This document shows positions 1-41,700 of a DNA stretch of 64,000 nt, one piece after another. Source of the DNA: Mya arenaria (lineage: Eukaryota; Mollusca; Bivalvia; Myida; Myidae); assembly GCF_026914265.1 (NCBI RefSeq), contig NC_069135.1, positions 9,069,001-9,133,000 of the forward strand, read 5' to 3'. Under the pieces are notes generated by a model. That model was not told the origin of the DNA, made no database searches, and saw only the letters and a program-made list of their open reading frames with translations. The position numbers and the translations under genes are program-made. How positions within the stretch are numbered: position 1 is the stretch's first letter; every line of letters begins with the position of its first letter.

Positions 1-337
1 AATGTCAAGGGTTTAAACGAACGCACAAATATATATATTTAGAAACAATGCATGCAAAACAATACACAATACGATAAGTAAATGTGCTTTGAGGGGCAGG
101 AACTTTAACGGACATGTAAAGTACATTCCTAACTATGGTAACGCTTACACAGAGTAGATGGAGTATGAAAAGCCCACTGAACGCTGACCATTCAGCGTGG
201 TACTTAAAACAGGCCGATGAGTCGTTTCCTTTTGAAAATATGAGTCATATTCTACGGTTGTGTGGTCAACAGTGAACATAACTTGTCTGTGGCACGAGCC
301 ATAATGAAGACGATACCTAGCGTGGTATTGGACATAC

Positions 338-3300
338 TTGTTTGAGCCACCGGACCTTGCAATGGATGGCGGACTGCAGTATACACTCGTATAACAGACA
401 GTTACCGAGAAATATAAAGAACAATAGTGTTACAGAAAGTAGACTGATTATATTTAATTGTGCATATGTTGAACCTAAATCAAAATTTACAACTAGACAT
501 TATCTTTCATTGCGTAGACCTCTCGATTATCATAACTATATATATATCGCTACTTAAAATGCATAGGGAACACTTACCATCCACTTATTGACGATAACGT
601 TAAGCTTTTCCGGAATTTCAACGAACTGAAAACAAATTAAGAAAAATCAACTTATATTTTCATTAAGAAATATCATGTTGTGTTCCTTAACTTTAATTCT
701 GACTATCAACGTACGTACTTCAAAATCAATTACAACGTTTAGCTATGATATGATTTTGACAAAAAAATCCCAGAAAAACAGCATGCATCGTTCACATACA
801 CCAAACGTATTGACTACTTAAAATGAAAACGTTGACTAAGCTCTTTGATAAATCATAAAAAGAGACGACTGAGAGTATTCTTATTTAGAATAAACGACCT
901 CTTCCTTGTGATATCGACGACCACGATGATAGTACACGAGCACAGCTGCTTGTTTCAGTGTGTGGTTTCACCGAGAAAGCAAAACAAGTTATATTTCACG
1001 AGAGGCTGGGGTGAATTTATTGCCGTCTGAAACAAACTATTTTTTCTCGTATAGCATGTATATGCCTTCAAGTGATTTTTGTTTCTTTCTTCAGAAAACC
1101 AACGCAAATATTGTGCAAACCTTAGATGAGATCAAATAAAAATATAACAGTGAACAGATTCAAACTAATATTCATTTTGAATCAGTAAACCTATCATGTT
1201 TTGTATAATAAATGACAAAGCTTCATGAAATTGCCTTATCAAATAGTTTGATAATATTCATATGTTAGAGTGATAATTTACTGTAGAAATTTGTTCACGC
1301 TATAAATGATTATAATTTGCACATGGGATATCATCATGGTTCGTGACGGCGATTACGGACTTTCTCAAAATAGCCGACAAAAACGAGTACCGCTCTGACG
1401 ACATCTGAACAAAAATAAAAATGGTCGACGTAAAGGCAATATCGGCGTACTTTAATCTTTAAAGATTTGATCCGAAAATAGTAATGAAATTAAATTACAT
1501 AAGGTTTGCCATAAATAAAACGTATTGTGTGTTTTAATGACTGTTTCCGGGAACGGTTCTTCGAACGGAAGTCACTTTGACCTCAAGGTAGTGAAGTTTT
1601 AATAAAACATATTAAATATTCCAGCGAAATTACTATGGTCATTTAAGTATTGATTCTGACTAACTTATGTCCTAGTTGGGTGGACCCTAGCCCTTCTTAG
1701 CATAATGAAATCAACGTAAAAACATCCGATGTAATCAAGAAAAATATGTGTAGAATGGAAGAACTGAGACTGCGAATGCCACAAAACACGATGAATGTTT
1801 TTGCTAACATTTCAGGAAATACGATCATTATTTGCGGATGTTTCGCCAAGTTGAAAGAGGTGCGATATTTGTCGAACAAAACAACAGCAATTAGATTAAA
1901 CTGCTTTTTTTGATTCTCAAATGCCTTCATGTTTTTTTTTTAATGTCGCGGAACGTGTCGTGGTATTTACAGTTTGGTAAGATGAAAGTGCACATAGAAA
2001 CCTTTAAAAGAACGGTTCATTCAAATTGGTTGTTGATAACGGTACTTTACAGATAAAACAGTTTATCAGGATAATAGTTATTCCATGAATCAGGTTTCAA
2101 GGTTTCTTATAATAAATTATATATTGGAAGTCCTTCATTCATTATCGCATATCCGCATGTCATTACATTGAACAATTTGGCCATTTTGGGGGTCAACCAA
2201 AAACATGAATATGTTGGGTTCCTGTATGCAGAAGAAAGATGTGATATCCGTGGCATTACTTTCTTGGCGCCGGCCTGTACACAAAAGACTAATAAGATAC
2301 CGATGCCAGCTCCAAAATCCGCTGCCACGCCGTATCTGAGACGGCTGTAGGATTTTTATGAATGCTAAGTAATGTTATTAAAGATTTAAATTGATATAGC
2401 TAGCGGAGGCAGTGGTGTTTCTGGAAGTCTGGAAAACTACGCGCTCCATTCTCGCTGACAGCCACTATAAACACATAGTGGATATCTATTCCCGGTGCAC
2501 AAACACAATCAAGGTAAGTCCATTGTGAGTGCAACTATTCGTAGTAAAGCGTATTCGGAATCGACACATGGTGGTTTCAATGTTTAAAGATAATTTTATA
2601 GCAGCTTACGAATATAAACCAGAAATACTAAGCCTAACCTACCAGAGACAGCCGCTCAGAATATTTTTTAGTTAAGGAATGCATTATAAAACATAAACAT
2701 TCTTATTGTTTGGGAAGATTTTATCATTTGGTTAATGCTGTTTATGTTTTCTATTTCATTTTTTAAGTGCCAAACATAAATAAAAAATTTCATTAAGGAT
2801 GATAATACATCATGAACACATGCACAGGCATGCGACAGACGGGATACTTTAGTCGGGCTTGTTATTGACAGCGCATCTATTGCACATGATATCAACACGC
2901 AATAAGTTAATAATGTAAAAGTTAAGCATGTAAAATACATAAAGGAATGTGGTCAGTAAAAACGGTTAATGCAATTCAAGAAATACACGTATAAATTGTA
3001 CAGCAAAACATAGTTACGTAAGCAATTTATTTTCAATGGTGAATATAACAGATCCATATTTCATTCAAATTGTCCACAAATGAACCATTACGCTTAATCG
3101 GCAAACAAACTTCACGAACGGTCACAAAAAAATGCTAGGCTAAAGTAGAAACAAGAGATAAAACTTCAGCACAAATATGAAATGTAAAAGGCTCTGGAAA
3201 CTGTACCCACCACTCCTTGCAACGAGTTAGAATGAGCATGAACAGTTTTAACATATACAGAGCGACATCAAATTTTACTGCAAGTTAATAAATACTGCCC

Positions 3301-4582
3301 ATACATATTTAAGAACTGATAATGTGTTAGAACACCCAAACACTTAAATGTTTGAAATACGTATCCGAAGTTCTAGATGATGGCAATGCAATGTTCTATG
3401 GAATTGAGATGACTGTCACTGTCATTTATAGGGTGGATTTTGACGGCTGACACTTCATCTGATCAAAACCTTGACAGCGAGGAGCATTGGACACGATAGT
3501 GTTCGTCCATAGGGTAACGTGAACGTTGAATAATTGCTTAAACTGAAACGAAACTAATTCAACAATTGAGACACGTGTTATATACGATTCGTTTGAACCG
3601 TACAGACATGTGGTCGTCTTCCTCGTCACTTTTAACTGGTTCCCTACACACATAAGAAAAAAACATTAGTTTATAATTGATGTCTATTCGATGTTCCATT
3701 CCAGCCGCAACAATACTTGGCTGTTCGTTTCAATTAGCAAAGTTCATAAGAAGCAGGTTATTACAGCAAATGGGTTCTGACAAGTATATATTGGTTTTCT
3801 GATTCTACAAAGTTTTCAGGCTTAGTCTTTAAATACCGTCGGTTTTGAAATTGCGATTGAAATCTGGCTTTCAGAAGGTGTCGGCTCTATTTAAAAGCAC
3901 TCTGATGAAATGCAGAGGCTGATATATCGGATTAAAATTACATACGCGTATTGGTAATTAAATTTCCAGTCTTATATTGTTTTGAATTATTGTTATACCA
4001 TATAGCGCGTGAATACATTTTTATGTAGAATTGAATCTCATTCACAGTTTCCTTAAAGATAATATAATGTATAGATACAGCATACCCTGGAAAACCCGAA
4101 AAGATGATGGTTGTACCCCAAAGAAAAACCGATAATTGTTCTAAATAAAGTAAATTCAATCCGATATACTACAATGATACTAATGTTGAGAGCGACGGAG
4201 TGTGTTATTTAAATGATATAGATTTTTACGAATTAACGACTATAATACGAACTGACATATACCCGGTATTTTTTCTTGAATAAGATTGATTCAATTCGTT
4301 TGACTTTATAACAGTTATTAATTAAATAGGAAATCTCAATTATTCTAAGGACCCTTACAAATAGCAAACAAATAGGTGTTGAAATTACCCTAGATAATCC
4401 AAGGAAATACATGTATAGCAAATGATATTTAATTAAGAATTATTCGTGGCGCAACTCGGATCTGCCTGAAATAATAGAAGAAGTCAGGACAACTGTCCAA
4501 AATGCATACAGCATACATGTAGGCGTTTGTCCGCACCGTGTTGCTTAAAATTTCCTCGTGCACGGTAATGTCCGCGTAGCTC
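338..4582 (-). pseudogene. PRMT6-like pseudogene, copy A (partial, runs off left edge)
   Basis: Minus-strand remnant of the arginine methyltransferase gene whose whole copy is D (26909-40193). Recognisable exons are exon 6 (338-406), exon 5 (578-625), part of exon 3 (about 2260-2345, with DFGAGIGILLVFCVQAG in place of the SAM-binding motif) and exon 2 (4517-4582, SYADITVHEEIL). Seen faults: exon 4 is missing where it would lie between exons 5 and 3; exon 1 is missing (D positions about 39390-40190 have no counterpart near 5300); the acceptor AG of exon 6 has become TC; and exon 5 reads NKWM where active family members read SEWM, so the first double-E glutamate is lost. Exons 7-11 would lie left of the window. 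By family knowledge this cannot encode an active enzyme. Confidence 0.82.
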
Positions 4583-7483
4583 CTGCAAGAAACCATGGCA
4601 TATGTCAGCCTTCATCACATGGAGAAGGAGTCTGTCAGATAACTGTTCCTTATAAGAAACAAGCATGCTTATATGGAGAGCTAACTTTGTACATACTGAT
4701 ATTGCGGATGCTGACTTTTCTATTAACGACTTAGAACTTCGTGACTTGCGTGTAACTTTAAACATGGAATTAAACGCTGGGGCTAGGCCATTTTCATTTA
4801 AACACTCCTAAGACGATCATCGTTTTTACTGTATTTTCCGTTCGGACGCCGAAGTGAATAATGTAAGGAAGAGTTTGTTAACTGTATAAATCATTCCATG
4901 GAGTCTGGTATCCGTTCATTATCCTGCAGTTATCAATGGAACCATGTTTTCCACGCGTTATTAGTTTTTACCAGACAGGAGTAACAATGTCGCTAATGAA
5001 AGCTAATTTGCTGCGTTATTATGTCTGTCATTTTACGAGCAAACGATGGAATTGATGTTTACACACCAGGTTTTGGTATGAGATTTTTGACGTATCGAGA
5101 GGTAATATAGCAATATTTAAAAGCTTTTTGTAGTCGTAAGTAATGTTTCAACAGCAACAGTTTAAAACAAAAGCATATAACGCCGTTAATGGTGCTCGTC
5201 AAATTGTCTCAGTTAATTAAGGGACATTACACACATAATTCTAAAACTCTAATTTCTTTTTTAATGTTCAATTAAGCTAGCATCCTTTCATGCAGGGTCA
5301 AATTGCGTGCATCCTTAAATCCGGCCGTTAGCAATTCTACGATCTTTAGATAACAAAAATCACTCTAGTGTAACGTTTCATTGTCAAGAACGTTTGAATG
5401 TCATTCACATATCTATGGTTTGAATGTACTATATCAATGATCCATTCGCCATTGAAATAAAAAGGCATTGTAAAATCCATTAGAAATATCGAATTGCAGA
5501 AAAAAATCAACCAAGCCTGAAATATCCTCTAAAACCTGATCAAATACTCTTTATCCATCTCATTGACTATCGGAGACGTTCAATTCACGATAAAAGCCAT
5601 TAACACAACAATAACAAAATTCATTTCAGCTCAAAACAAATTCCCATGTCAAGCAACCATAGATATCGCAACGGTTTAGTATGTGCCGTACTTGCATGTT
5701 ATTTAACAACAGAAATCGAATGTTCAGAACAGAAATAAATATTGTATTAAATAGTATTGGCCAAATGTGGCTAAATCTAAATATTTGATGTCAGTTAAGA
5801 GTGATTTATTTCACAAACTTAGATAAAAACGTATATAGTGCTATGAAATTGATACCAGATAAGCCGGAAGTATAGATGCTTCTATTGGACGTAAAAATAG
5901 GGGTGATATTTTCTTATTTATTAGTTGGATATTGCTTTTGTAAATATATGTTTTTGAAATGACGCAATTGCTTTATCATTATACTTTTGTATTTTGGCCA
6001 AAAGTAGAAAGTTTATATGACGATTCGCCTATCATGAAACTCTGAAACTCCCCCGGTTAACAAAAGTATTTCACGAACGATATCCTTATATCCAATACAT
6101 TACGTTTGACGCATAGTTATCCAATATTGTCATCTTTCGACATCAACTATAATACAATCTAAATGAGACAAAGCAAGGGTTGGAGGAACTGCTAAATAAC
6201 GCGATATACACAAGACATATTACATGAACATTTGCAACAATACGAATAAATGACGACTTACGAAAATAAATCATTAACAGGTAGTGCTCGTTAATTCACA
6301 GGAATCTCATTATCTTGTGTGCGTGGGCTTTGGCAACAGTTGTACCTTTATTGCAGAATTAAAAACCCATTAAATGGAGTTGATTCAATATCTGATATAC
6401 ATTATAACGATGACGCTGCCTTCAGTAAGTTTCTCAGTCGTAGACAACAACTAATTTCCAAATACAGTGCCTGTCCTAACGAAATTTTAATTGTGATCCT
6501 GGTTTGTGGAGTTATGAGAGATCGCAATTTTAGACATAGAATTAAGCATTAATAAAAACAAGACCTTCCTTCCGGAAGAAATTTTATTTCATTTTTCTAT
6601 TTTGAATTCACCGCAAAAAATGCGATTAGCACCCACTTGATACCAATTCCAAGAATAAATACATACCGGGCCTGAAAAACTAACTGACAGATGTATGCTG
6701 CCGTACAAGTTATGATTGTGAGATCTTCAACAACAAATGTTTTGTTAGTGTTTGTATTTGCCAGTAAAACAATTATATCGTTTCATAAACACCACCAAGG
6801 CAAATATATCCACATTAATTCTTTGATTTTCCAATTAATTGTCAGTTTCATGTATCTAATTTAAATATGATTCAGCGATGATCAATTGCTCTGGTGTAAT
6901 TGAAAAAGTATTGCAAAGCGTTTAAAATATTGAATAGCAATAATTAACTAAATAATTCTGATCGCTGGATTCAATAGCCAACCTAAGACGTGCAAGGTTT
7001 TATCAAAACAAGTCCTACACAATCTGACAATATGATAAAAGAGTAAAATTATTCAAGATTTAAGATTATGTGATATGTGATAACAGTAAAAGAAAAGCAA
7101 AGATCAATGCGGCTGAAATAACTCCTCAATTTATGGCATATTTTATCATATTTACACCTCAACTTCCATTACTTAAATGAACCTCATTTCGGCAATTGCG
7201 TCCATCAATCGATGAACACAACATCTTCGGATATGTTCGGATCGCAATTCATTGCATAACAATATACATGAAAAATATTTATCTTGTTATTGTTTGTATT
7301 GTGTCAGAAGGTCCCGTAAAATATAAATCAACATTTTAGAAGGTGTTAGTTTTTTAAATTTTAAATGTGTAGTTGCCATAACTGTTTGAATTTTACGTTT
7401 AAAAGTGATTTCAAGTGGTTGATCTTTTCCAGCGATATTGTGACGTCATTTGAAAAAAATGCTTCCGGTTAGAGTCGGGTCTT
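4583..7483. other. Intron 1 remnant and 5' flank of copy A, no gene seen
   Basis: Stretch 4583-5260 matches intron 1 of copies B, C and D. From about 5290 to 6650 it matches the 5' flanks of B (16810-18640), C (21450-22270) and D (40190-41320), for example the shared word around the lost start codon near 5305-5340. From 6.6 kb rightwards it is the A-to-B spacer. Only short chance open frames are present. Confidence 0.6.
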
Positions 7484-7492
7484 TCTATTTAC

Positions 7493-7824
7493 CATTCGGA
7501 ACTCCTCGGCCATTTTTTCAAAAACAACCTCGGATGTATATGGACGGTTTACATACTTAAAAAGTAAGTTCAAGTCCGCTGCAAATAGATCGCGTAGTAA
7601 TCTTATTTAGTAGTTAAAATTTATGACTTAACTCTTGGGAATCGTAATTATGTTTGCAATAATACACTTCACTGGCAATCAATTTAAACTGAGAGCAATG
7701 AATACAACTCTTAAACACTACATTTAATTAATGCTTTTATTAAAAAAAATACGGACTACTTCAACAGATGTACCGGCATACATCCGAGGTTGTTTTTGAA
7801 AAAATGGCCGAGGAGCTCCGAATG
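7493..7824. mobile_element. 332-bp MITE with 47-bp terminal inverted repeats and 9-bp target duplication
   Basis: The left end (7493-7539) and the right end (7778-7824, reversed) match over 47 bases with one mismatch; both begin CATTCGGA and contain CCTCGGCCATTTTTTC. The element is flanked on both sides by the same 9 bases TCTATTTAC (7484-7492 and 7825-7833), a clean target-site duplication. It has no coding capacity. A 9-bp duplication fits Mutator-like transposases best; Merlin or P-type cannot be excluded without a reference. The near-perfect ends suggest a fairly recent insertion. Confidence 0.88.
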
Positions 7825-7833
7825 TCTATTTAC

Positions 7834-10312
7834 AGAATGGGTAGGAATGGGTTACTGAGAATTTTTTTTTTTAATGAAATTAAGTTTTTTTAACAATTCT
7901 TGAATGAAATAATGAACTATTGGTGTAAATATAAGTAATGAATTGCGGGCATTCCTTAAATATACAGTATTTATGTATAAATATTTAGTTCGCAGTCAAA
8001 CAATGCTATCATTTTTTTAATATTTACAAATCTTACTTTATTTATTAAAGACGAGCGGGTGTGCACGTGTTGTATGCTATTACAAACATTCATCAAATAT
8101 GCGATGCAGTAGTTAATGCTTGGCAATTCTTTTACGAACATTTGCCTTCCTAAAATGATGCTGTATTCAAACATTCGAACAATATGAACAGAAATTAGAC
8201 TTTAGCAAAGTCGGGCTTATTAATATACAATTATTTATTGGAATGATTCTAAAAGTGTTGTTCGATTTGTTCATATAGTATGTTCACTTTTCCATGTGTA
8301 ATAAACAATGATGACATTAAAACATACGGGACAAGTGAAGAAATTGTTGTTGTATTAAGTTTGTTGCTGGGTTCTCTTTTCTTTGGTGTTTGGAGTTTGT
8401 TACGATATAATTATTTAGCCTAATGAATTTCCGAAGAGATGCATTTTCTGTTTATTTATTTCTTTAAAAAGCCTTTTCCACAAAGTAATTGCTGAAAAAA
8501 GATGTTTATACTATGATTTTTTTGAATTTTATAATATGTTTTTTAGTGATTTATCAGTGAAAAAAAACACACGATATTTACCACTCTCAATTCCAAATCA
8601 CCTCGTGAGCACCAGTCGGTGGTGGTCAATCGCCGAAATATAATACGATCTTACACTGAAACAAACCATAAACTTCTATATAATGTCAGCGTCATGTGTT
8701 TATATTACAAGTACGTTTTGTTGAATAAATTTGAATGCCATCGTCAATTCCGTGCGTTTTAAAACATTGAAAGAAGACTATTATAAACAAATCGTGCTCG
8801 TTAATTCAGAGGAATTGCATTATCCAAAGTGAGTGTTGTTTGGTATCATATTTAGTTAGGACTAAACCACACAATTATAAGACAGAGCGAGATTACCTGG
8901 AAGCAGATAACTTAAGATACGAGTACATATCAGCCTGGCCAGGAACATGTATTTATTCTTACTGCAATTAATTCAATTGGCTTTAATTTCTTACCCATTA
9001 TTTACGGAAAAGAATACAGAGAACGAGTTTTATGTGTGCATATAAATATTAACTTGATATTTTATAAAATAACGACATACAAGTAAATGCACGTTTGCAT
9101 CAGAAAGGAAGGAGTATCGCTGTCAAAAGACATTTAGATCCTGTCACATCTTATTCGACAGTAAATAAAACAAAAACGTATCCCTGTCATGTATATGATT
9201 ATTCTTACAAACAAAGCAAGTCATGACATGATATAAGAACTAGTTGACACGTGACCAATAAAGTACTTGTTCCAGTACATTTGCACGCTAAATGATCAAC
9301 AATACTCTCTACAGTGTACATGTACTTTCCCTATGCTGTACATACAAACACATATTTCATATGGCTTTTATATGACGTTTTAGTGCATATCATATCACAA
9401 TGTTCAAGGCACAAAATCAAGTCAGTGAGACTAGAGGTCTTGACCTAGAATATTGTCCACTTTATGAAGTACTTGACTATTGGTATTCACTTAGGACACC
9501 TTGATGGAGAAACTATAGTGTACTGATAAGAGACCGTCACTTCTATTCTACAAACACTTGTAGCGCGGCTCTTGGTAAAGAATATAAATGAGCTCACAAG
9601 TCCCCGTACAACAATCTAGATATGAAAGGTCATATTTGCTCAATCGTGGGCAACCGTGTGCAAAATAAATAGAAGGCTAATGCATAGTTTCTTGAAAGGA
9701 GCTGAGGTGTTTGCATATAACAGCTTCTGTCTTGGAGGCTTTACTGTCCCTCATTAGATATAAAATGCTCTTCTCAAATGTCTTGTAGTCATCAGACAAA
9801 GCAGTCGTTCATGAGATGCGTCCTCGTGTGTTTTGGTCCGTTGTTCACTTGGTGCGTGATACTGATATCTAGGAACCTGAAACAAGTTAAATTTAAGATA
9901 GCGCATTTTCACCTTCATATTCCGCAGTTTGTTCATGTCTACGTTTAAAACAATTTTCAGGTGCTGCAAATGTCACAGAAACCCAATTCATGCATTGTCC
10001 GCTTTGAATGCAGATTTCGATTTAGGAAAATGAAACATTTCCAACTTAATACATTTGAATGTTCGTTCATGAAAAGAAACACTAACTTAAAAATAAGATA
10101 CAGGTGCTGCAAATGTGCATTGTCGCAGAAACACAATGAATGCATTTACCTTGAATAAAGATTTCGGTTAAAGGAAAATAAAAATAAATAAATTACGTTG
10201 TACAGAAAAATGGACGACGTAAACAGACTGGTAAACTAATGTAGGCGTTTTCTTTAGTTTTCTCTAATTTTATTTAAACAAAGTCATTGATGTACAGCAC
10301 GTTGCGAAACGA
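7834..10312. other. Spacer between copies A and B, no gene seen
   Basis: Non-coding sequence that matches the C-to-D spacer (about 22.3-25.4 kb) in order and orientation, for example around 8260-8600 against 23220-23600 and 9420-9560 against 25040-25180. From about 9.9 kb it becomes the 3' flank of copy B and matches 26560-26900. I see no supported gene. Confidence 0.6.
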
Positions 10313-13077
10313 TTATAACATGCTCGCAATTAACCTTGCGGCTTCCCTGTGTGGCCGGATGTCGATGGAACCGGAAATACACGTTTCCTGGTCAACCGGA
10401 AAAGGCTCCTCCACGTAAAAGGCCTGTCTGTGACCAGTGCGTCTCCCTGGCAAGATTAACAAGAAATTAAATGGTAATGGAAGTTTGATGCAAAATATGT
10501 TGGGCATTACTCTCGTTGTTATAACACAGCGAGACCAATACCTTAATTGCTAGACAATAGTCCGTGTGAGATTAAGCCATGACTAAAACACATATTCAAT
10601 GAGAAAGCAGACGGCATCCAAAGTTATATGTTCTAAGCACATGATTTTTAATGAATTGCAATCATAAACAAATCATTTTGAGACTTAGATGCAGAATATA
10701 AAGTACACAGAATAACACACTCTGCGTAAGGCGATGTTGTCAAACTGACGCCTTCTGGAAAGCCGACGTCAAACCACGTGCAGAGTGTAGAACCCGTGAA
10801 CTTGCGTCTGCCCGAAACACTGGAACCGGAATTCTCCCTGACATGTAGTTATTTCATAATTGTATAATCTGTTAACACACATGATTCCGCAGAAATTCGT
10901 AATTAATGAAGTCATGTGAAAATTAATCATATCAGCTCAAGATTCTACATGTGTTCGTTTTCTGATATTTGCGTGATGAAATTTATAATGCAAGAACTAT
11001 TTAAGATTATGCACAGCACGCAAACGAAAACTGAATAATTCGAATTATTTAATTAATTAATTGATCTTCTCTGTTTCTGTAATGACCAAAAACGCACCTG
11101 GACATTTTCAAGATCTGATGCCTGTACTGTGAGCAGGTCGAGGTGACAGATTTTCTGCGCATGCGCTCGTATAGCTTTCGTTGGTATGGTATTCACGTGC
11201 ACCTGCTCTGACAAAAACCATACGTTAATGATCAACAACGAATACAAATATTTTAACTACTTGAATGTTCGTTAATATAACATCACGGTTACTATTACAC
11301 AATGCAATACGAGTTGTCCTCAATTGTAGACTTTTGTTTCATTGCATGTGTCGATCATAATGTACGGCACCTGAAATTACCGGCAGTTTTTATACACAAG
11401 AGAAACGTAAATATTTATATATTTGCCCACTCAGGTGCATAGCAAACAGTCACCGTGATGTGTGGTATTGACGATCACATAATCAAAGTTTATTCCGACA
11501 GACCATATAAAGGTACCTGTTATCATACTCGACTACGTAGAATGGGGGAATGTACAGTGTAGCGGTTGACGGGAACCTCAAAACATCCTGGAAGAAAAAG
11601 CACCTATGTGCTATAAGGGCCAGTAGTTGTTGGTCAGCAATGGACTATTTTGATATATCCAGGGTTTAAATGAATGCTAAAATAAATATTTCCTTAAAGA
11701 ATGATAACGAGCGATACACACAACGATAAGTAAATGTGTTAGGAAAAGCAGAAACTATAACGGACATACAAAGTTCATTTTAAAATGTAGAAGGTGGACT
11801 TTGAAAAGCACACTGAAAATTGAAATTGTTAACCAATAAGCGTAGAACTTGATATAGGCCAATGAGCCGTTTCATTAGATAAAATGGTAGATTATAGTCT
11901 ACGGGTATCTGGTAACAGCCATAATGAAGACGACATTGAGAGTGGCTCTGCAGTATGCTGCACCAATCATACTACAGTCAGAAAAAGTGATACGGGTATT
12001 GATGTACCTGTTTGAGCCACCGGTCTTTGCAGTGGATGACGGACGGCAGCATAGACTCATAGAACAGGCAGTAACCCTGAAATACGGAAGAAAATAATGT
12101 AACACAAAGTGGAACGAGTACATTTACTTGTACAGATACTATAACTTATACAAAAAATATTATCACCGGACACTGTTTTTTATTGAATAAACCGCACGAT
12201 TGTCATAACTGCATGGATATATAATTGCAAGGGGTCACCTACCATCCACTCACTAACAATAACGTCAAATTGTTCCGTAAATTTTACAGACTGAAAACTC
12301 ATTAAGAAAGATCAACTCATTTTAACATAAATACATGAAAAACGAATATAAAAACTTAAATTTTGAAGTTTAAACGTACGTACATCAAAATCAATTACAA
12401 GGACTATGTACCAAACAAAACAAATCTCTGAAACAGCATAGACTCCTACTCCTCGATATAAAACCATTCACATACACGAGACGTATTGACTACATAAACT
12501 TGATCCTCGTAATTGGAGCGACTAAAATTAACAACAAGCACGACAATTAAGCGAGGATAATTGTTTGTTTCAGCAAAAGATCGCAGTATATTTCACTGAG
12601 TGAGCACCGACAGTAATATACCACGAGAGGTTTGGGTGAATTTGTTGCTATTGCGATCTAATGTGAAACAATCGGGTTTTCTTCGTAATGTATGACTTAA
12701 AATTATTTCTACTGTATCAGAAAACAGTAAATGGATTCTGACAAGTGAGTGTTTTTCGTGTTTATACATACAGAACACCTGCTGATTTCCATATTTGAAT
12801 CACATGTTTTAAACCGACGGTATTCAAAGAAAAAGAAAACTGTAGAATCAGACATCTGATAAAGGGGAAGTGCACGGTTGATTTTTTATGAACACTACAT
12901 AATCGCATTGGTATTCTTTATCCCGCGTGAATACATAATCATGCAGAATGGAATCTCATGCTCAGTTTGCTTTAAGGTTATATAATATAAATATTGTACT
13001 CTAAAAAGACGAACAGAGAGTGGTTATATCCCAATGGAATTACATGTCCTTGTTCGTATTAGAGTAAGGCGCACTAG

Positions 13078-13240
13078 CAACATCACAACAATGATCATTG
13101 TGACGGCGGACAGACTGACCAGCAACATCTCAACAATTATCATGTGGGCGGCGGACAGACTGACCAGCAACATCTCAACAATGCTTCTGTTGACGGTGGA
13201 CAGATTGCCCAGCAACATCCCAACCATGATCATATTGACG
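13078..13240. repeat. 45-bp minisatellite, about 4 units, in intron 2 of copy B
   Basis: Tandem units of 45 bp with the core GGACAGACTGACCAGCA and CTCAACAAT.ATCATGT. It is the same family as the large array in copy D (33861-35500) and lies at the matching place in intron 2. Because 45 divides by 3, all frames stay open and produce apparent ORFs on both strands; these are not genes. Confidence 0.88.
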
Positions 13241-13675
13241 GTGTACAGACTTTGGAACTTGATATGACCTTGATAACTTAAATGATAGTTTTAACGGATT
13301 ACCGATGATAAAACAAACTGATATACACCCGTGTTTTCTTGAATAAGATTGAATAAATCTCGTCTGACGTTACAGCAGCTATTTTTTAAGCAGGAAATCC
13401 CATGCATTCTAGTTGCCACAAACCAAAAAGATCAGTCTTGCAATCACCCTAGATCATCCAAGGAAAATACATAATAACAGATCATTTATTTACCAGAAGA
13501 TCGTAGACCGAATATCATACAAAAATAGTGACAAGTACAAAACATGTGTGAATATTCATACATTCTAAGTTCGAAAGCCTTGTATATAAACATACTCAGA
13601 TTGTTTTAAAATAGTTTCATTTTCTGTATTGATCAACGCAATTAATTATACATACTAGGGTGTTGTCTATAATAC

Positions 13676-13906
13676 CTAAGTATAAATCTCATTCTTAGTT
13701 GAAGCATAAACAATAAGAAATATTTTAAACATATCAACATCTATGCCATCTAGGCCTTTGTGTATAAACACATCTTCTAAATCATTTAAAAACATAGAAA
13801 ATAGGAAGGGTGACAAACTCTCGCCTTGCCGTACACCTAACATACAGTCAAACCCTTCTCCTGGTAAATTATTGTGTTTAACTTTCGATTTGACAGTATC
13901 ATACAT
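13676..13906 (-). mobile_element. LINE reverse-transcriptase fragment
   Basis: The minus-strand translation contains GVRQGESLSPFLFSMFLNDL, the conserved B-motif region of non-LTR reverse transcriptases, followed by a decayed version of the LLYADD catalytic region (LIVYAS). It is a short 5'-truncated scrap next to an AAT microsatellite. It lies within intron 2 of copy B at a point (about 13490-14010) where copy D has no such sequence, so it entered after the B/D split. The LINE clade is not determinable from so little. Confidence 0.85.
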
Positions 13907-13908
13907 TG

Positions 13909-13910
<2 letters not shown>

Positions 13911-13982
<72 letters not shown>

Positions 13983-14007
13983 GATTAATAATGATAATAA
14001 TAATAAC
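13911..14007. repeat. (AAT)n microsatellite
   Basis: About 70 bases of perfect ATA/AAT repeat (13911-13981), then imperfect repeats to about 14007. It directly abuts the LINE fragment and may have grown from that element's tail. The long poly-Ile, poly-Leu and poly-Tyr frames here are artefacts of the repeat. Confidence 0.95.
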
Positions 14008-14519
14008 ATTAAGGATCTGCCTATAATAATCCAAGCACTCAGGACTGATCGCCCACGTACATACCTGTAGGCGTTTGTCCGCACTGTGTCGCTTAACATT
14101 TTCTCGTGCACGCCAACGTCTGCGTAGCTCCTGCAAGGAAACATGGTAACAGTAAGCGTCAATCACATGGGAATAGAGTCTGTCAAATTTTGTTTTTATA
14201 GTAAACAAACATGCTTATATTGAGAGCAAAGTTAGTACAAACTTACATTTCTCATAAACTGAACGGCTTTTTACTATGTTACTTGTAAACATGACAAGAG
14301 TTGTCATAGTTGTCGATTATACACAAATTTGTCTTAGAAATTAAAACAATAACGGTGCACTACGTTCCTTTGAAAAGTAATAAAAAAGGAGTAAACATGA
14401 AACGCACCAATACGACGAATCAAAGGGTTTTAATGATTGACAAAATAATTTTCAGCATCCGTTGTGAGATTCAGTTTCAACTGTTTGAATTCATTCTATT
14501 TTTGTTACATTGACCTCGA

Positions 14520-15075
14520 CTTTGACCATAGAGGTCTAAAACTGTGTTGGCTGTAAACAACTGTGTGAAGTATTGTCCATTGAATGACGGATATCGAAGT
14601 AATAAGTGAAAATCCTACCTTGTCCTAAATTATAACCGGACTCAATGTGCTCTATTACTTTAACCTAAGTTCCTAAGTCAATCAATAACTTGTATTTAAA
14701 ATGAAATGGTGTAATGTAACCTAATGTAACCTTATTGAAAAAATGGTCGTCAACAATTGTGTGAAGTATTAAGTCAATTGAATGAAGGGTTTATAAGTTA
14801 TCAACGAAAATTCCCTTTTTGCCCTCAAACTTTAACTCGACACAAATTGCTCTAAAACTTTAACCTAAGTCCATCAGTTAATTTGGTGCCATAATTTGTA
14901 CTAAGGATAAAACGGAGTTATGTAACCTCCTGGTGTCATGATCCTGAATTGAATGGAATAAAGGGCATTGGAGTTATAAGTGCAAATGCCAAACTGCCCT
15001 ACATTTTTAGCCGGACGCCGATGCAGACACCGATGCAGACGCCGACGCTGAAGCCGGGCGTATAGTATAGCATAC
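14520..15075. repeat. Interspersed repeat ending in GACGCCGACG-rich segment, copy B
   Basis: Repetitive block with two similar sub-units (CTAAAACTTTAACCTAAGT repeats) and a right end made of GCCGACGC-type words (15013-15056). The same block occurs in intron 1 of copy D (36085-36453 plus 37665-37795, split by a later insertion) but is absent from intron 1 of copies A and C. No coding region recognised; probably a non-autonomous DNA element. Confidence 0.7.
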
Positions 15076-15925
15076 TTTATCTTCTATTTATATTCATTTA
15101 TATAACATACTCGTAAAAGGTTATCGTTTTTACCGATTTTTCCTTTCGGACGCCAAAATTAATAAGGAAGTGTATGAAGTGCATTTATAAATCATTATAA
15201 ATTATGGAGTCTAGTATACATTTATTATCCTGGAATTATCAATGGAAACATGTTCACAGTTTATTAGTTTTTACCAGACATGAGTCACAATGTCGCTAAT
15301 GAAAGCTAAATTGTAGAGTAATTATGTCTGTTTTGATAACCAAATGATACTGTTGTGTACAAGTCATGTTTTGGTATGAACGTTGAGGTTTTTTTTAATT
15401 TAAACGAGGTAACATAGCAATATCTAAAGGGTTTTTGTCGTTGTTTGTAATGTTTCAACAACAACAGATTAAAAACATGGGCATCTACGACAGTTAATGA
15501 CGCTCGTCTATTTGACTCAGTTAATCATGGGGAATTATTAGCATTTAAGCCAGCCTTGGACCTATTAGCACCTTTGTTTGTCACAATGCAAAATCATGTG
15601 TTTGATGAACCCTGGCATGTTGCAAAATTTGCCAAAAAAATTAAACCAAACAACTAAATGATAGCTAAATTTGGAAACGTAATAAAGTTGGGCTTTTAAT
15701 TGAGGAAGTTTCTTAAAGATAAGATTTACCACAATAAATAATACTCTTTTAATATTCCAAAAAGGATTAATAAATGTAGAAAACAATGGTTCTGAAGGAT
15801 ACCAAGTTTAATTTGAAACAAATGAGCCTAAAACACAGTATTTCTACCTTATGAGATCATAGTATACCACAGTGAATCTTTAAGCATTTACCAATCATTC
15901 AATATATTTGCGCGTTCTGCTTTTT

Positions 15926-16174
15926 AAGTTTAAACATATTTATTTTACAACGATTGTGAAACAAGTTATTACAACATTATATTAATCACTCTCGTTGGCA
16001 CGATTTTACGCGAGAGTGTGGTCTTGTGTTGTGGGGGAAACCGGAGAACCCGGAGAAAACCCACTTGTCCGGCTTGGTGACCACAAACCAAACTCACATG
16101 CGCCCAAGCCGGGAATCGAACCCGGGTCGCCTAGGTGATAAGCGAGTGCGCTAACCACTGCGCTAACCGGACAA
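15926..16174 (-). mobile_element. tRNA-derived SINE
   Basis: Read on the minus strand, the head has a tRNA-like A box (TTAGCGCAGTGGTTAGCG) and B box (GGTTCGATTCCCG), then a tail domain with the words GGTTTTCTCCGGGTTCTCC typical of tRNA SINEs in molluscs and other animals. It is flanked by a target duplication GCGTTCTGCTTTT (15912-15924 and 16175-16187). About 250 bp, in intron 1 of copy B. The tRNA part is not a functional tRNA gene because it is fused to the SINE body. Confidence 0.88.
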
Positions 16175-16812
16175 GCGTTCTGCTTTTAAATGCACGATTA
16201 CAATCCTTTTATCAGTAATTAATATTTTATTATTTAAATCAATTATTTAGTAAGTAGTCAAAATTCATATTTGTTATAAGAGTGAATTTGAATAAGTGTG
16301 TCACTTAAACATATATGCGCAAAGACAGTTTAACGGTTTTCAAATGGTAACCAGTATGTAAATCGTTGAACGACAACGCATTAACGCTCGCTTATATGCT
16401 CTTTTACTAATGCAAGTTCTACATCTGCCTTCAAAACACGGGTTTAACACTTATTATTCCTGGAAAACGGAAATAAGATATTTCATCGTGTTTAACGTTT
16501 TCAAAGGATGACACCATTTGAGCTTGGTTGTTTTTCCAAATTTTAAACCGTGATATACAGACGTTGTCAAATTCACTTAATGTCAGACCTTTTGCGAAGA
16601 AGTAAAAAACAAAACGTTTCCACTTTTAATAGCAAATTAGAAATAGAAAACAACGCTTACTTGAAGTAGCTACAGTCATGTCTCCGCCTTTTCCGGTCTG
16701 CTTCTTCGCCTGATGGCATCGTGTCTTCTGTCCGCCTGAAACACGACCGGAAGTAGTCAATGAGCTCCATCAGCACGCACACGACGGCCGTCCACATACA
16801 GAGAGCCTGCAT

Positions 16813-17357
16813 CCTAACATCCGTCCTCCACCGGCCGTTAACAACTCTATGACTTACATATTAAAATAACCACTCCAGTTTAAGGTTACATTGTCCACAC
16901 CGTTTCGATGTCATTTATCTGAATGTGTTTCAGCAATGATGTATTAGCCGTTAAAATAAAAAGGTATTGTACAATCCATTAGAAATATCGAATTGCAGAA
17001 AAGAAATAATCAAGCGTACAATATCCCTGAAAAACTGATAGGCTGCTTTGAGAGCCAACTTCTCAAATCATCTTAATCCAACACAGTCACGATTGCAGCA
17101 ACTTGAAGTACAGCTATCGGAGACGTTAACCGATTCTACCTATTTCTCTCCACGATAAGAGCCATGAACACAACAATAACAAAATTCACTTCAGCTCAAA
17201 ACAAATTGTCTTATTCCCCTGTCCTGCAACCATAGAAATGGGACCGGTAAAGAATGTGCTATACTTTCATGGTGTAAAATACATTGTCTAAAACCTGAAT
17301 CGCACGTTACAAGTATTTTATAAACGACCTCTTTATTTTCACCAATACCTTCCGTTC
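16813..17357. other. 5' flank of copy B, no gene seen
   Basis: Matches the 5' flank of the intact copy D (40194-40757) closely, so it holds whatever core promoter the family has. I cannot point to a convincing TATA box or initiator by eye. Confidence 0.55.
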
Positions 17358-17365
17358 GGCGTACA

Positions 17366-18174
17366 CACAGGGGCAGGTTGCGTTGTTTTGACACACCACG
17401 CCCCCGTCCGTTTTTGGAAGTCAAATATCGTCCAACAGAGCCGTGCACACGATTTACAATCTTTGTTTATTTCTTTACGCATATGCTGACATGGACATTG
17501 CGCAACCGGAAATTATTCACGGTGCATGCGTTGGTGCCCTGCTTGCATCTACGATATAGTTGCGTTGCGTGGGTAAATTTGTTCGTGTATACACATACTA
17601 GCTGGCATGTATAATTATTGTAAACAAAGTATGAACATTGTTTTTTAGCATGCACGGCTCTATGGGACGATATTTGACTTCCATTTCACCTGTATCGTGA
17701 TAGATATATTGTTTCTCTTAAGCACACGTGTTAAATTTATGATGCAATACCGGGATAATGCATTTTAGTCTGGAAAATTTCGGTGAAATTTGCGGGTAGT
17801 TGGTTCGTCGAGTAACATGTTTTAGGAAACTCGGGTTTGAAATTGCATTTGTTTTCGTTAAAACTGTACATTTTCTTAAAGATTGACACTAACTCTACAA
17901 GGAATATCCAAAAATGTAGAGTTTGGTTAAGATTTGATAAAGTTATGGCCTCTTAAACAGGGTCATGTCGGCAAATACATGGAAATTCAGGGTCAAGTCG
18001 TCACCCTTTACAAAGATAATAAAATAAAAAATAAAAATAAAAAAAATAATTTTTTTTTGCCAATTTTCACAAGTTACAGTTACCACATCTTATTCTTACT
18101 AAAATTTCATAAAAAAAATGATAAAAAAACGGACGGGGGCGTGGTGTGTCAAAACAACGCAACCTGCCCCTGTG
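17366..18174. mobile_element. 809-bp TIR element with 8-bp target duplication (hAT-like)
   Basis: Ends match as inverted repeats over about 50 bases (17366-17416 and 18124-18174), beginning CACAGGGGCAGGTTGCG. Both sides carry the same 8 bases GGCGTACA (17358-17365 and 18175-18182). An 8-bp duplication and CA-GGGG ends fit the hAT superfamily, though this is inferred. No transposase is recognisable inside. The corresponding place in copy D (about 40758) is empty. Confidence 0.88.
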
Positions 18175-18182
18175 GGCGTACA

Positions 18183-18960: not shown

Positions 18961-18974
18961 CATACAACTTGTAA

Positions 18975-19310
18975 TCTACTTATGATTTACGAATATCACT
19001 TAGCAAGTGACTTAATACGTGATTACACGCATCTTATCTAGGTTACCAGTAAGTATTTTACTTACTAAGTTGAGTTCGTGAACCATAACTGGATAACATG
19101 TGAGTGCCTGATTTTGGAATGCATTTTTAGGTAACTGGTAACACGAACCTTATTCATTAAGCCAGTTATTATGCTACTTAATAAGTGGAATTCACAAATC
19201 ATATAACGAGTTAGTGCTAGAATTAGAAGCCACAAATGCATTTATAGATAACTGGTTACACGCATCTTACCTAGTTAACCAGTTAGTATGTAACGTATTT
19301 ACCGATGTGA
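18975..19310. repeat. About 117-bp tandem repeat, 2-3 units (dispersed family)
   Basis: Diverged units about 117 bp apart containing AACTGGTTACACGCATCTTA-like words and AATTCACAAATCATA (for example around 19081 and 19198). A further single unit in the opposite orientation lies at 59165-59270. Each unit mixes short inverted words such as TAACTGGT and ACCAGTTA, so it may be a foldback MITE or a small satellite. Confidence 0.65.
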
Positions 19311-21456: not shown

Positions 21457-24400
21457 CTTAAAAACCCGGCCTACACCTGTCGTTAACAATTTTACGATCG
21501 ACAGTTCACAAAAAACATCATGATAGTATAGGACTATATTGTCCAGAACGAGAGCTACTGCGTTTGAATGTAATTTAGACAAAAAATAACGGAGCTTATC
21601 ATATCACCTTAAAAATGACTTTGATAGCCAAAGTCTTAAATCATCTTAATCCAACTCATTCATGGTCCGACTTGAAGCACAACTATCGAAGATGTTCAAA
21701 GTCTTACCAAACCGATTCTAGGAATTTACCTCATTTCCTTTCTCGCTTCACCATAGGAGTCATTAACACAGCAATAAATAAATTGACTTCAGCTCGTACT
21801 TTGATGTTTTAAAATACATGTCTGAAACCTAAATCGCTCGTTTAAAGTATTTCATGAACGACATCTTTATTTTCAATATATTACGTTCGCATAGTTATCC
21901 AATACAGACATCTTTTAACATTAACCGAAAAAACAATTTATATTAGACAAAGAAATGTCAAAGAGGCACTTAACAATTACGTGATGTATGCAAAGCATAT
22001 TTTATAAACATTTGTCTTCTAGCAAGGCAACTGTATGAATAACGCAAATAAATCATTAACAAGTCGTTTTCTCTTGTACATGTGTATTTGCAACAGCAAA
22101 ATTCGGGACGTGATGGAATGTTGTCGATACATTATCTTATATACAAAATAACAATGATGCTGCCTTCGATGATAATTTATTCAACTCAGATACTCAGTCA
22201 TGATATTGAATTGATAATTCACAACGAAAAAATGCAATTAGCACCCCATTTATATCATTCTCAGAATTGATAAATGCCCGGTCTGAAACAATACTGACTG
22301 ATTTACACTGCCGTTTATATAATGATTGATCGGTTTTTCTACAACTTTGTGCATTACTTTTGTCCGAATATGCCATAAATGTCTCCATAAATGTCTAATG
22401 ACAATATCTTACAATAAATATTTTCATGACTACATTAGGCAAGTATATCCACCTGCTGTCCTTTGAGCTACCTAATAACCTTACCAGTGGCACGTTACGT
22501 TGTCTACGACGAGAGCGCACCACATTGAATGTCAATTACCTGTTTATGATTTAAATTTGTTTCATCGATGCTCCATTGCGCTGTTGAAATCAATTAAGGG
22601 TATTTCAAAACGTTTAAAATAGTGGACTGCAAAGAAATCAAACCAATTGCGATGTTGAAATCAATTAAGGGTATTTCAAAACGTTTACAATGGTGGACTG
22701 CAAAGAAAACCAAACCATTCTGATAGTAAGATGCCAACGTTTTGGCTGCAGCGACAAAGATCACTTGCTACCGGAGAAGTGCAAGATTTTATCAAAACAA
22801 AACCTGTACTCCCTATTTCGCTACAGGACATTAGAGCAATATTATAGATAATAGAACAACAATAACAAAGAATACTGTAGCTGGAAAAAATCGTCTTGTT
22901 GCGTCACCCATTATCATATACATGGAATAAGCCCTAAGTCTACGGTTCAGATTTTAAGGTTAAACAGTACTAGTCCTTACCCAAAACTAAAACCTTCTGT
23001 CAGTTTTGAAGTTTTAACCGTGACACCCTTCCCCAATATTTTTATATAATTAAGGTCGTAGGATGCCATCATATTTATTATTTACAAATTCTTTTTTATT
23101 CATTGTAGACAAGCTAGTGACTGTGTACATGTTGGTATGCTGTAAGAAACGATATATATGCGATACGGTAGTAATTCTGGCTAGGAACATTTCCAGTTTT
23201 CAAGAATTGAAACAATATATGTTGTTCGATTAAAGCAGTGTTCATCAAATGTGTTCAATTGTCCTTGCCGATTAAATGATGTGGACATTAAAACATATCA
23301 GGACCAGTGACGAAAATTGTAAACTTTTAGACTTAATTATTTATGCCAGGTATTTTATTTTTCAAATACTTAATTGAAATAAATTTTGTAAACTGGTATA
23401 AAAGTGTTTTGTTATTTAAAGATTGTTGTTGGCTTCTCTTTCCTTTTAGCGTTTAGAGATCGTTACAAGTGAGTTTAATGTATTTTCGGCGATGGGCACT
23501 TTCTGTTTGTATAGCCTTTTTCACAAAGTAAATGCTGAAAATGTTGCTTTAACTATTAATATGTGTATTTTATAACATGCTTTCCGGTGATTGAAAGAGA
23601 TTTATCAGTGAAATAAAAAGGATATTTAACTGTATGAAATATTGAAATTATATTTTGATATGTTTTACTGTTTTAAAACTTTGGACCGCTCTCAAATCAG
23701 AAATGACATTGGGTTGGCTGGCATACAGTATGGCGCGTTTTTATGAAAACAATAACAATTAAATGTCATTTTATATCCTTGTAGGCATATAATATAAAGC
23801 TTTTTTTGTTTCCGTGTAAGATCGCAATATATTTCAACTTGTGAGAGCGGTTACTATCCTACGCGGCTTATTCGTCAATTGCGTTAATAAAACCTAAAAA
23901 GAGTAGATACGCAAACATCATAAACAAGTCGTGCTCGTTAGATCATAGGAATTGCATTACCTCATGTGAGTGTAGTTTGACAGCATATTTTGTTAGGATC
24001 AAACTACACAATTGTAACACAACGAAATATTATTTAGAGGCAGACCACTTAAGATACGGGTACATATCAGCCCTGCCAGGAACATCATTTTATTCGTTCT
24101 TCAATTATTACAATTGGCTTTAATTTATTGGCCCATTCCTTGTTGAAAAGGAATACAGAGAACGGCTTTCAGACAGAAAAGTAAATGCAAGTTTGCATCA
24201 CAAAGGGGGGAATGTCGATGGCAAAGGACAATACGATTCTATTACACATCCTATCTTTATTCGATAGTTAAAACTTAACGTTTCCCTCATGTGTTAGCTT
24301 CTTCTTACAAACAACACATATAATGACATCACATAATAAATATAAGAACTAGTTGACTTTCTACCAACGGAGTACTTGTATAGGTACATTTGCAGGCGAA

Positions 24401-25459
24401 ACAATGTAGTGGACATGTTTTTAGTTAATCATAAAACATGGAAATGAAGAAACAAAAGCGTCCGGAAAGTGACGAATAAAAAAAGTCACAATTATTCTGA
24501 ATTTCTGAGCGGTTCAGGAGAAAACAATCCTAGCTACCAAGTACTGACAAACTGTTCAGGTCAAATTTATGAACCTGTACCAACATGCACCGTCTGTTAC
24601 ATTAAACAAATGCCGGTAACATTGTAAATATATAATGTAAAGGAAGATGCTGTGTCTCGTGTTTCACTATCATTATTCGGCTCTAAATGATCTACGATCC
24701 TCCCGGAACTGTGCATTTACTTACCCTATTCTGTCGTTAAAGACCAACTCATTGTGTTCATGGTTTTTATACGAAGTTTTAGTGCATTTTACATCACATA
24801 CACGGTTGCCTTAAAACGTTCAGATATGTAAGCTGCATATTTACTATGGTTCGTGTTAACATCTATAAATGAATCAAACGCAATCCAAGTGAAATTCGAT
24901 TTCCATTTTTTATATCAAATATCAACAGTTAATGGCATAATTAAATTATGACATAAGAAAACTAACTACTGATTTAGGTTGCGTTTAATATGAAAATGTA
25001 ATGTAATGGTTAGTCATATCACACTGTTCAAGGCACAATATCAAGTCGTTTAGACTAGACGTCTTGACCTAGAATAATGTCCACTTTATGGAATACTTGA
25101 CGATTGGTGTTCAGTTAGGAAACCTTGATGGAGACAAAAGTGTACCGATTAAGTGACCGTCACTTCTATTCTACAAACACTTGTGGCGCGCCTCTCTCTC
25201 TCTTGAACAGTCTCTGTATTGAAGGCTTAACTATCTTTCGTCAGATGTATAATACTCTTCTCAATTGTATTGTAATCATCAGACAAAGCAGTCGTTCATG
25301 AGATGCGTCCTTGTGTGTTTTGGTCCGCTGTTCACTTGGTGGGTAATACTGATATCTAGGAATCTGAAACACGTTATACTGAAGTTAACATATTCCTACC
25401 TTGATATACTGCAGTGTGTTGATGTCAACACTTTAATCACAAGAGATGTTTGTCAAACA
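21457..25459. other. 5' flank of copy C and C-to-D spacer, no gene seen
   Basis: Matches the A 5' flank and A-to-B spacer (5.3-9.96 kb) in the same order. It contains no recognised exon, RNA gene or conserved frame. The only internal structure noted is the 72-bp tandem duplication listed separately. Confidence 0.6.
22576..22720. repeat. 72-bp tandem duplication, 2 units
   Basis: Two nearly identical neighbouring units containing TTGAAATCAATTAAGGGTAT and GTGGACTGCAAAGAAA. The matching A-to-B spacer has only one diverged unit near 6890-6950, so the duplication is local and recent. Confidence 0.85.
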
Positions 25460-26543
25460 TTATGCCCCCCCCCCCCTGAGCGCCATGTTGTCAGGATTAT
25501 ATGGACAATTGAATGAAATATGCATGGACCGAAATGACAGCTGATTTGTTGCTGTTAAGGCAGTTTTAAGATTATGACCATTAAAGTGGGAGGATAGAGT
25601 GTGTTATGACCATGACCTTTGACTCTATGAACTCAAAATCCAGAGTCATCAGCTGGTCACCAGAAACCTAAATGTCAAGTTTGAGGGCCATGGATGCAGG
25701 CATTGTCAAGTTATCACTCAGACAACCTTTTATCATTCAAGGTCACTGTGACCTTGACGTTTGGCCCAATGACCCGTAAAATCAATAGGAACCATCTTCT
25801 GGCCAGGCCCAACCTCCAAGTCAAGTTAGAGGGACATGGGTGCAGGCATTGTCGAGTTATCACTCTGACAACCTTTTACCATTCCTGGACACTGTGACCT
25901 TGACCTTTGGCCAGATGACCCCCCAAAACCATAGGGGTTATCTCCTGGTCAGGCCAATTCTCCAAGTCAAGTTTGAGGGCCATGGGTGCAGGCATTGTCG
26001 AGTTATCACTCGGACAACCTTTTACCATTCAAGGTACATGTGACCTTGGCCTTTGGTCCAATGACCCCCAAAAACAGTAGGGGTCATATACTGGTCAGGC
26101 CCAACCTCCAAGTCAAGTATGAGGGTCATGGGTGCAGGCATTGTCAAGTTATCACTTGGACAACATTTTATCATTCAAGGTCACTGTGACCTTGACCTTT
26201 GGCCTGATGACCCTCAAAACAATAGGGGTCATCTACTGGTCAGGTCCAATTTCTATGTCAAGTTTGAGGGCCATGGGTGCAGGCATTGTTGAGTTATCAC
26301 TCGGACAAGGATTAAAATTATTTTACCATTAAAGGTCACTGTGACCTTGACCTTTGACCTGATGACCCCCAAAATCAATAGGGGTCATCTACTGGTCAGG
26401 CCCAACCTTCATGTGAAGTTTGATGACCATACGTCCAGGAATTGTTGAGTTATCACTCGGACAAGCTTTGGTCTACCGACGGACCGACATACCGACATGC
26501 CTGTGCAAAGCAATATACCCCTCTTCTTCGAAGGGGGGCATAA
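25460..26543. mobile_element. Non-autonomous TIR element with internal 146-bp tandem repeat
   Basis: Ends are inverted: TTATGCCCCCC at 25460 and GGGGGGCATAA ending 26543. Inside are about five units of 146 bp (for example starting near 25694, 25840, 25986 and 26132) rich in GTCACTGTGACCTTGACC, TAGGGGTCATCTACTGGTCA and GAGTTATCACTCGGACAA. The 3' end carries a short GACGGACCGAC-type run. The equivalent site in copy B (near 9950) lacks it, so it inserted after the block duplication. This type of repeat is common in mollusc genomes. No transposase seen. Confidence 0.82.
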
Positions 26544-26908: not shown

Positions 26909-40193
<13,285 letters not shown>

Positions 40194-41700
40194 CCTAACA
40201 TCCGGCCTCTGCCGGCCGTAAGTATACTACGACTTACGGATTTCAATAACCACTCCAGTGTAACGTAGCATTGTCCAGACCATTTTGATGTCAATTATCT
40301 GTTTATGATATTAGAGTGTTTGTTCAAATGATCTATTCGCAGATAAAATAAAAAGGTATTGTACAATCCATTAGAAATATCGAATTGCAGAAAAATTCAA
40401 GCCTACAATATCCCCTGGAAAACTGATAGGCTGCTTTGATAGCCAACTTCTCAAATAATCTAAATCCAACACAGTCACGGTTGCAGCAACTTGAAGCACA
40501 ACTATCGGAGACGCTTACTGATTCTACCTCTTTCGTTTTTCGATTTGAGCCATTAACACAACAATAACAAAATTCCCTACAGATCAAAACAAATTGTCTT
40601 ATTCCCCTGTCCTGCAACAATAGAAATGGAAGCGGTAAATAATGTGTTATACTTTCATGTTGTAAAAATACATTGTCTAAATCCTAAATCGCTCGTTACA
40701 AGTAGTTCATGAACGATATCTTTATTTTCACCAATACCTTCCGTTCGGCGTACAGTTATCCAATACCGTCATCTTTTAACATCAATCGAAAATACAATTT
40801 ATTTTCGACAAAAAAATGTGGTAAAGGCACTTATCAGTTACGCGATGTATACAAAGCATATTTTATGAACATTTGTCCGCCAGAAAGGCAAAATAAAAAT
40901 AAAGGAAGACTTACGCAAATAAATTATTAACAAATCGTTCTCGTTAATTCACTGCAGAAATCTCATTATCAATTGTATGTGTGTTTTGGCAACAATTTTA
41001 CATTTATCAGTCATGGAATACAATCGATACAATGTCTGATATACATAATTACAATGATGCCGCTTTCGATAATGCTTTATGTTACTCAGTAACTTAGTCA
41101 TAGACAACTGACTCTGATATACAGTACCTGTGCTCACGAAAAAGGCACACTAATTGACATCATGGTTCTGAGTTATAAGAAGGTGCAGATTTTTGTGACA
41201 TGAATAAAAAAGAGCTGTACTGGGGGTAAACTCTCTGGGGTATTAATAGAACACTTTTTCTATTCAATATTCTCAGCGTACACATTCAATTAGCACTTAA
41301 TTGATACCAACTCCGATGCCAATAATATATTCTTAGAACAATATGCGTTAAATACTGGTCCATCTGAATGACGACATGTCCGTGTTGTAAGCTATCTTAC
41401 GAACGTATCAGAATGAATATTTAGCGGGCCTAAAAATAAAACAACTGACTGATAAAATGTTGTCTTCCAAATCACGTACAAATTACAATTTTAAGATCCC
41501 ATCAGAACTATTCCTGTTGAACAAGATTACCTGGCAAAAGATTATGTCCGATACCAGGTGCCGGATACACAGTTACACAGCTAAATTTTCTTTAATTAAT
41601 GAGATCATTCCCAATGGAATAGAACGTAGACTAGTATATATACTATTGATCGTAATTTGATTTTCTGGCACTAGGAGGTATTTTCGATACTAGAACATAG
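40194..41700. other. 5' flank and presumed promoter of PRMT6-like copy D
   Basis: Shared with the flanks of B (16813-18930, apart from its TIR element) and, for the first 1.2 kb, with A and C. The region just upstream of the ATG (40194-40330) is well conserved among copies. No TATA box is obvious and no coding exon is recognised. Confidence 0.5.

Follow-up and report, generated by a model that had tools for sequence, protein, structure and literature searches.

A mirror-image PRMT6 cluster in Mya arenaria with two complete gene copies, apparently both under purifying selection

The genome of Mya arenaria carries a mirror-image PRMT6 locus of about 100 kb, in which at least 10 exon-bearing units, two complete (D and E) and eight partial, can be recognized in the 144 kb searched. 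We give a probability of roughly 0.82 to the account as a whole, namely that the cluster is a mirror image, that the genome has no PRMT6 genes found outside it and that two of its copies are under selection. D and E are each predicted to encode a type I arginine methyltransferase of the PRMT6 family, presumably expressed and enzymatically active. Histones and other proteins would be the expected substrates of both, with asymmetric dimethylarginine as the product.

The window is the whole stretch of 64,000 nucleotides that was analysed (C14:9069001–9133000). Searches with the D protein and exons covered 144 kb of joined sequence (the window plus 60 kb to its left and 20 kb to its right), and whole-assembly searches covered 1,216,080,610 bases in 18 contigs. 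The cluster is known from one assembly, and repeat clusters can be misassembled. Its outermost PRMT6 matches lie at C14:9026893 and 9127259; it extends ~42 kb to the left of the window start, and about half of it lies inside the window.

A first-pass annotation of the window had described four head-to-tail PRMT6-like copies in positions 1–41,700, one of them intact. Self-BLAST of the window bears out the arrangement: colinear repeat units that include exons, introns and spacers run through positions 1–41,700, with all genes on the minus strand. Within the window, D is indeed the one copy that is complete, with its catalytic residues kept, but as a description of the locus 'four copies, one intact' falls short, since the second complete copy and further fragments outside the window bring the count to at least 10 units. 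The order along the chromosome is G, F, H, E, I and then A, B, C, D. F–H–E–I lie on the plus strand and A–B–C–D on the minus strand, with G minus and J plus, and the head-to-tail arrangement is found only within each half. The units are as follows:

Left of window, minus strand: copy G, exon 3, part of exon 4 and pieces of exon 8 inside a 55-bp tandem array
Left of window, plus strand: copy F, exons 3, 4 and 11
Left of window, plus strand: copy H, exons 1 and 2
C14:9047403–9058388, plus strand: copy E, complete, 11 exons, 350 aa, 10.6–21.6 kb left of the window start
Left of window, plus strand: copy I, part of exon 1 and exon 2
C14:9066707–9067756, minus strand: copy A exons 7, 8 and 9 and a portion of exon 10, beyond the left edge of the window (C14:9069001)
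1–6600, minus strand: copy A, cut by the window edge, with exons 2, 3 (part), 5 and 6 inside the window
8780–19000, minus strand: copy B unit, exons 1, 2, 5, 6, 7, 9, 10 and 11, with 3, 4 and 8 missing
19600–22650, minus strand: copy C unit, in which only exon 1 (21345–21472) and exon 2 (20350–20442) are recognizable
26909–40193, minus strand: copy D, a complete PRMT6 gene with 11 coding exons and a 350-aa product
58157–58259, plus strand: fragment J, a degraded exon 4-like piece (70.6% identity, 17 gap columns)

The earlier view that A, B and C have each lost exons stands for B and for C. For A, the seeming loss is partly an artefact, because the window edge cuts off its exons 7–10; its exons 1, 4 and 11 gave no DNA match at E 0.01. 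Indels are present in exons 9, 10 and 11 of copy B and in exons 5, 7, 8 and 9 of copy A. Spliced-alignment scores are 620 for D, 631 for E, 279 for A and 305 for B, compared with a range of 138–199 among eight shuffled queries and a score of 153 for the opposite strand. With scores of 80 and 132, respectively, C and F do not rise above chance by this measure and therefore rest on their DNA matches. At C14:9029428–9030655, a piece of PRMT6 exon 8 is repeated in a 55–60-bp tandem array (~13 copies of 55 bp), a case of coding sequence turned into a satellite.

Could the extra copies instead be haplotypes left uncollapsed, or errors of assembly? High heterozygosity is typical of bivalve genomes (PMC10663159), and a concern of this kind is natural. 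Nonetheless, the units are just 68–82% identical in the main pairwise sums (where the F–C and E–C sums include F–D and E–D sequence, the spacer at 23878–25439 belonging to D by synteny with the B 3′ spacer), they have lost different exons and they lie in two orientations. Divergence of this size is far beyond that usual between alleles, and we regard such an origin as very improbable indeed.

The structure of D was recovered with exactly the coordinates and length that the first-pass annotation had given, and its spliced score lies above chance. Its 11 coding exons run in one frame from an ATG at 40193 to a stop that ends at 26909, and all ten introns have GT–AG borders. By position, all on the minus strand, the parts of D are:

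40042–40193: exon 1, begins with the ATG and encodes the hydrophobic N-terminus
35862–35927: exon 2
31526–31635: exon 3, with the SAM motif (10 residues)
30718–30818: exon 4
29416–29463: exon 5, ends in SEWM, first half of the double-E loop
29155–29223: exon 6, second half of the double-E loop
28468–28538: exon 7
28113–28195: exon 8, GT-donor model
27721–27830: exon 9
27354–27463: exon 10
26909–27041: exon 11, with the THW loop, then the stop
23878–25439: 3′ spacer, which pairs with the 3′ spacer of copy F outside the window (tree 99/97, mirror chain)

A GC–AG intron after exon 8, which fits the human length, was considered and rejected, since in D and E alike the frame is preserved by an AA/GTAAGA donor that lies 11 nt upstream together with an acceptor that lies 5 nt upstream. 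No extra C-terminal exon of D was seen by eye. The D and E proteins are identical at 333 of 350 residues (17 differences), and neither gene has a premature stop, an indel or a lost splice site.

The assignment of D to PRMT6, made earlier from the window, was checked against the other PRMT families. In a PDB search, the 10 highest-scoring rows are all PRMT6 chains (297 to 293.2 bits), PRMT2 follows at 229.7 bits, and PRMT8, PRMT1, PRMT3 and CARM1 come after it. The product also groups with PRMT6 by tree: with 12 rows covering the catalytic half, one of them a PRMT6 reference, D and E join human PRMT6 with support of 95/94. Pfam PRMT_C is above its cut-off in both proteins, with the match reaching position 151 of 164, and an NCBIfam search returned general methyltransferase families only, all under their cut-offs.

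The human-numbered residues Y47, Y51, R66, E141, E155, E164, S169 and H317 are kept in both D and E, and cover the tyrosine dyad, the SAM- and arginine-binding sites and the double-E and THW loops. We take E155 and H317 to be catalytic positions, and the human sequence has H at 317. The other positions (Y47, Y51, R66, E141, E164 and S169) come from PMC12153100, which writes E317. The same paper gives a range of 340–380 residues for PRMT6, and D and E fall within it. At the C-terminus, the alignment of D and E stops at human residue 357, 18 residues short of the human end.

The N-terminus begins with a hydrophobic stretch (residues 3–21) whose Kyte–Doolittle mean of 1.74 over 19 residues is the highest in the protein. 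The segment of exon 1 that encodes it is conserved in D and E, is readable in B and leaves remnants in C and H. Exon 1 is identical between D and E at 147 of 152 nt (96.7%), against 82–84% in its flanks. Because it is conserved between the complete copies, readable in B and more identical than its flanks, exon 1 is very probably coding. Cues to whether D and E are nuclear conflict, with the hydrophobic N-terminus on one side and a later RKRRR stretch on the other.

No match to PRMT6 was found outside C14 in assembly searches with the core protein, the exon 1–2 protein and exon 11 DNA, in which the best candidates were scored. The core-protein search gave 52 matches, and those off C14 fall at PRMT loci on C4, C6, C7, C13 and C10, except for two weak matches at C7:13.4 Mb and C5:62.4 Mb with E above 5. 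In the tree, the C4 locus groups with PRMT1 (100/99), C6 with PRMT3 (90/94), C7 with PRMT2 (99/97) and C13 with CARM1 (100/99). The C10 locus (C10:11171461–11172498) is a type I PRMT gene with one exon, whose 447-aa product includes an acidic stretch and scores highest in the PDB against PRMT1 (246.6 bits, compared with 211.5 for PRMT6). In the 12-row tree this gene sits on a long branch at an open fork and falls clearly within none of the named PRMT families. A further match, on C3, carries no family assignment.

How did the two halves arise? The left-hand order F–H–E–I mirrors the right-hand order D–C–B–A, and a block was therefore probably duplicated in inverted orientation. In the left arm, 28 inverted hits form a mirror-order chain of 14,464 bits that covers 17,693 bases. 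The best opposite-order chain scores 4,969 bits, a lenient control since the order within units already favors the mirror. In the 3′ spacer tree, F pairs with D (99/97) and E with B (100/99), and in the tree of exon 1 and its 5′ flank, H pairs with C (100/99) and I with A (100/100).

A plain inversion of part of a single array would likewise yield two orientations, with copies in the two halves being as similar as any two copies. This reading gains something from the 5′ flank tree, in which E, B and D fall together in a single clade (99/97) without internal resolution, and from gene-body trees that break the mirror pairs: A joins C and H (86/93) rather than I in the exon 2 region, where H/C is again recovered (100/99), and D groups with E, leaving out F (99/97), in the tree of intron 2 to exon 4, in conflict with the mirror pair F/D. 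The exon 11 tree is weak (67/68). What a plain inversion does not predict is that the closest pairs H/C, I/A, F/D and E/B occur in reversed order, each with 99–100% bootstrap in at least one tree. Because of the 3′ spacer tree and the mirror chain, we consider plain inversion quite improbable, and return to inverted duplication of a block.

The disagreements among gene-body trees probably come from gene conversion. B and D reach 91% identity in some gene parts where B and E are at 74–77%. The mirror partner of E is B and that of D is F, both of them broken; the two intact copies do not form a mirror pair. At the start of intron 8 (27963–28106), D and E are identical at 140 of 144 positions (97%), as high as in the exons, which suggests a D–E conversion tract; a constrained element would be the alternative.

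Tandem copying of an 11-exon PRMT6 gene would have come first, followed by inverted duplication of a four-copy block (F–H–E–I giving D–C–B–A, or the reverse). Later, portions of the gene bodies would have been mixed by gene conversion or unequal exchange. Exon loss and frameshift would have degraded most copies, with D and E staying intact under purifying selection. We infer this order of events, and the occurrence of gene conversion in the cluster, from the sequences of the units.

Two comparisons bear on whether D and E are constrained: (i) exons against flanks and (ii) nonsynonymous against synonymous change. For the first, D and E are identical at 1009 of 1053 exon positions and at 2359 of 2783 flank positions (Fisher p 3.5e-24; 22 flanks of ~150 bp, one of which yields only 2 aligned columns). 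For the second, dN is 0.023 and dS 0.112, for a dN/dS of 0.20 (codon bootstrap 0.10–0.38), with 0.07 over codons 51–190 and 0.28 over codons 191–350. For the broken copies, dN/dS against D is likewise below 1 (0.49 for B, 0.45 for A), which in part reflects the constraint on D, and no in-frame stops occur in A or B among the codons compared with D. D and E thus apparently are both kept intact by purifying selection.

It is also conceivable that only one of the two genes works and that the other is a recently silenced pseudogene whose frame is still open. The divergence between D and E is greatest in exon 11 (118 of 133 identical) and in the last four residues. Against this, the D and E flanks differ by 15%, which would have allowed time for decay, yet both genes retain every splice site and an uninterrupted frame, and there are just 18 nonsynonymous differences over 809 sites. 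We therefore judge a silent partner unlikely and retain constraint on both copies as the better description. The suggestion that PRMT6 genes are born and die locally is upheld by this set of linked copies, some decayed and some under selection.

Several other elements lie among and beside the PRMT6 units. In unit B, ~810 bp at 17366–18179 lie between perfect 50-bp inverted repeats (17366–17415 and 18125–18174) and are missing at the matching place in D; the stretch appears to be a terminal-inverted-repeat element that was inserted once the copies had separated. A 47-bp inverted repeat pair (97.9%) at 7493–7824, ~330 bp across, is perhaps a second small element of this type. Intron 2 of D holds a 45-bp minisatellite of 36 copies (33860–35493) in which several frames are open (ORFs up to 250 aa), and the same minisatellite is shorter in B (13076–13251) and in intron 2 of E. 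Directly downstream of D is a 146-bp tandem repeat (25674–26469), with a related block in D intron 1 (38322–39070). Beyond the copies lie an open frame of 1015 aa (43521–46568, minus strand) that has cadherin domains and what looks by eye like a transmembrane stretch, a 574-aa open frame of the carboxylesterase family (49033–50757, plus strand) and long satellites at 52372–55236 (25-bp unit, ~114 copies) and 62957–63997 (43-bp unit, ~24 copies).

PRMT6 writes histone arginine marks and, to our knowledge, is usually a single gene in each genome. Here, two selected copies stand beside dead ones in graded states of decay, and shared introns and spacers make them comparable; the cluster is a natural record of a chromatin-enzyme gene multiplying and being pruned. 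It also illustrates that the reading of a single window can undercount intact copies. PRMT6 paralogues would matter for expression work on Mya arenaria and its transmissible cancer. More speculatively, and in our estimate rather unlikely to hold in full, the selected paralogues may be a pair, one in each arm of an imperfect palindrome through which they exchange sequence, with a shared hydrophobic start that could anchor them to a membrane. If true, the membrane would be a new location for PRMT6.

In domain order, in the catalytic residues tested and in best sequence match, the clam genes resemble single-copy PRMT6 such as the human enzyme (PDB 4y30, 4hc4), with 148 identities to the human sequence among 331 aligned residues. 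They differ from it in having two intact copies, a hydrophobic rather than charged N-terminus and a shorter C-terminus. The N-terminal extension of PRMT8 attaches that enzyme to membranes. D and E share with PRMT8 (PDB 4x41, 5dst) the type I PRMT class; unlike PRMT8, they match PRMT6 better than PRMT1/8, and their N-terminus is a hydrophobic stretch and putative anchor. In mouse, Prmt6 is a single exon according to PMC11516099, whereas the clam gene has 11 coding exons.

The clam cluster itself has no report that we found in the open-licence literature, where the only account of PRMT6 copies in a spiralian that we met is PMC12153100. It describes four PRMT6 genes in the annelid Dimorphilus gyrociliatus that are said to be without the tyrosine dyad, to have many catalytic sites changed and to be likely catalytically dead. 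That published expansion tempers the earlier view of local PRMT6 birth and death as unusual, leaving the birth and death itself in place. The two cases are alike in being lineage-specific multiplications of PRMT6 in a spiralian, and they differ in that the clam has many decayed copies in a single cluster and two that keep their catalytic sites and appear to be under purifying selection. The Mya arenaria locus is thus a birth-and-death cluster of a known type, in a family whose expansion was already known elsewhere.
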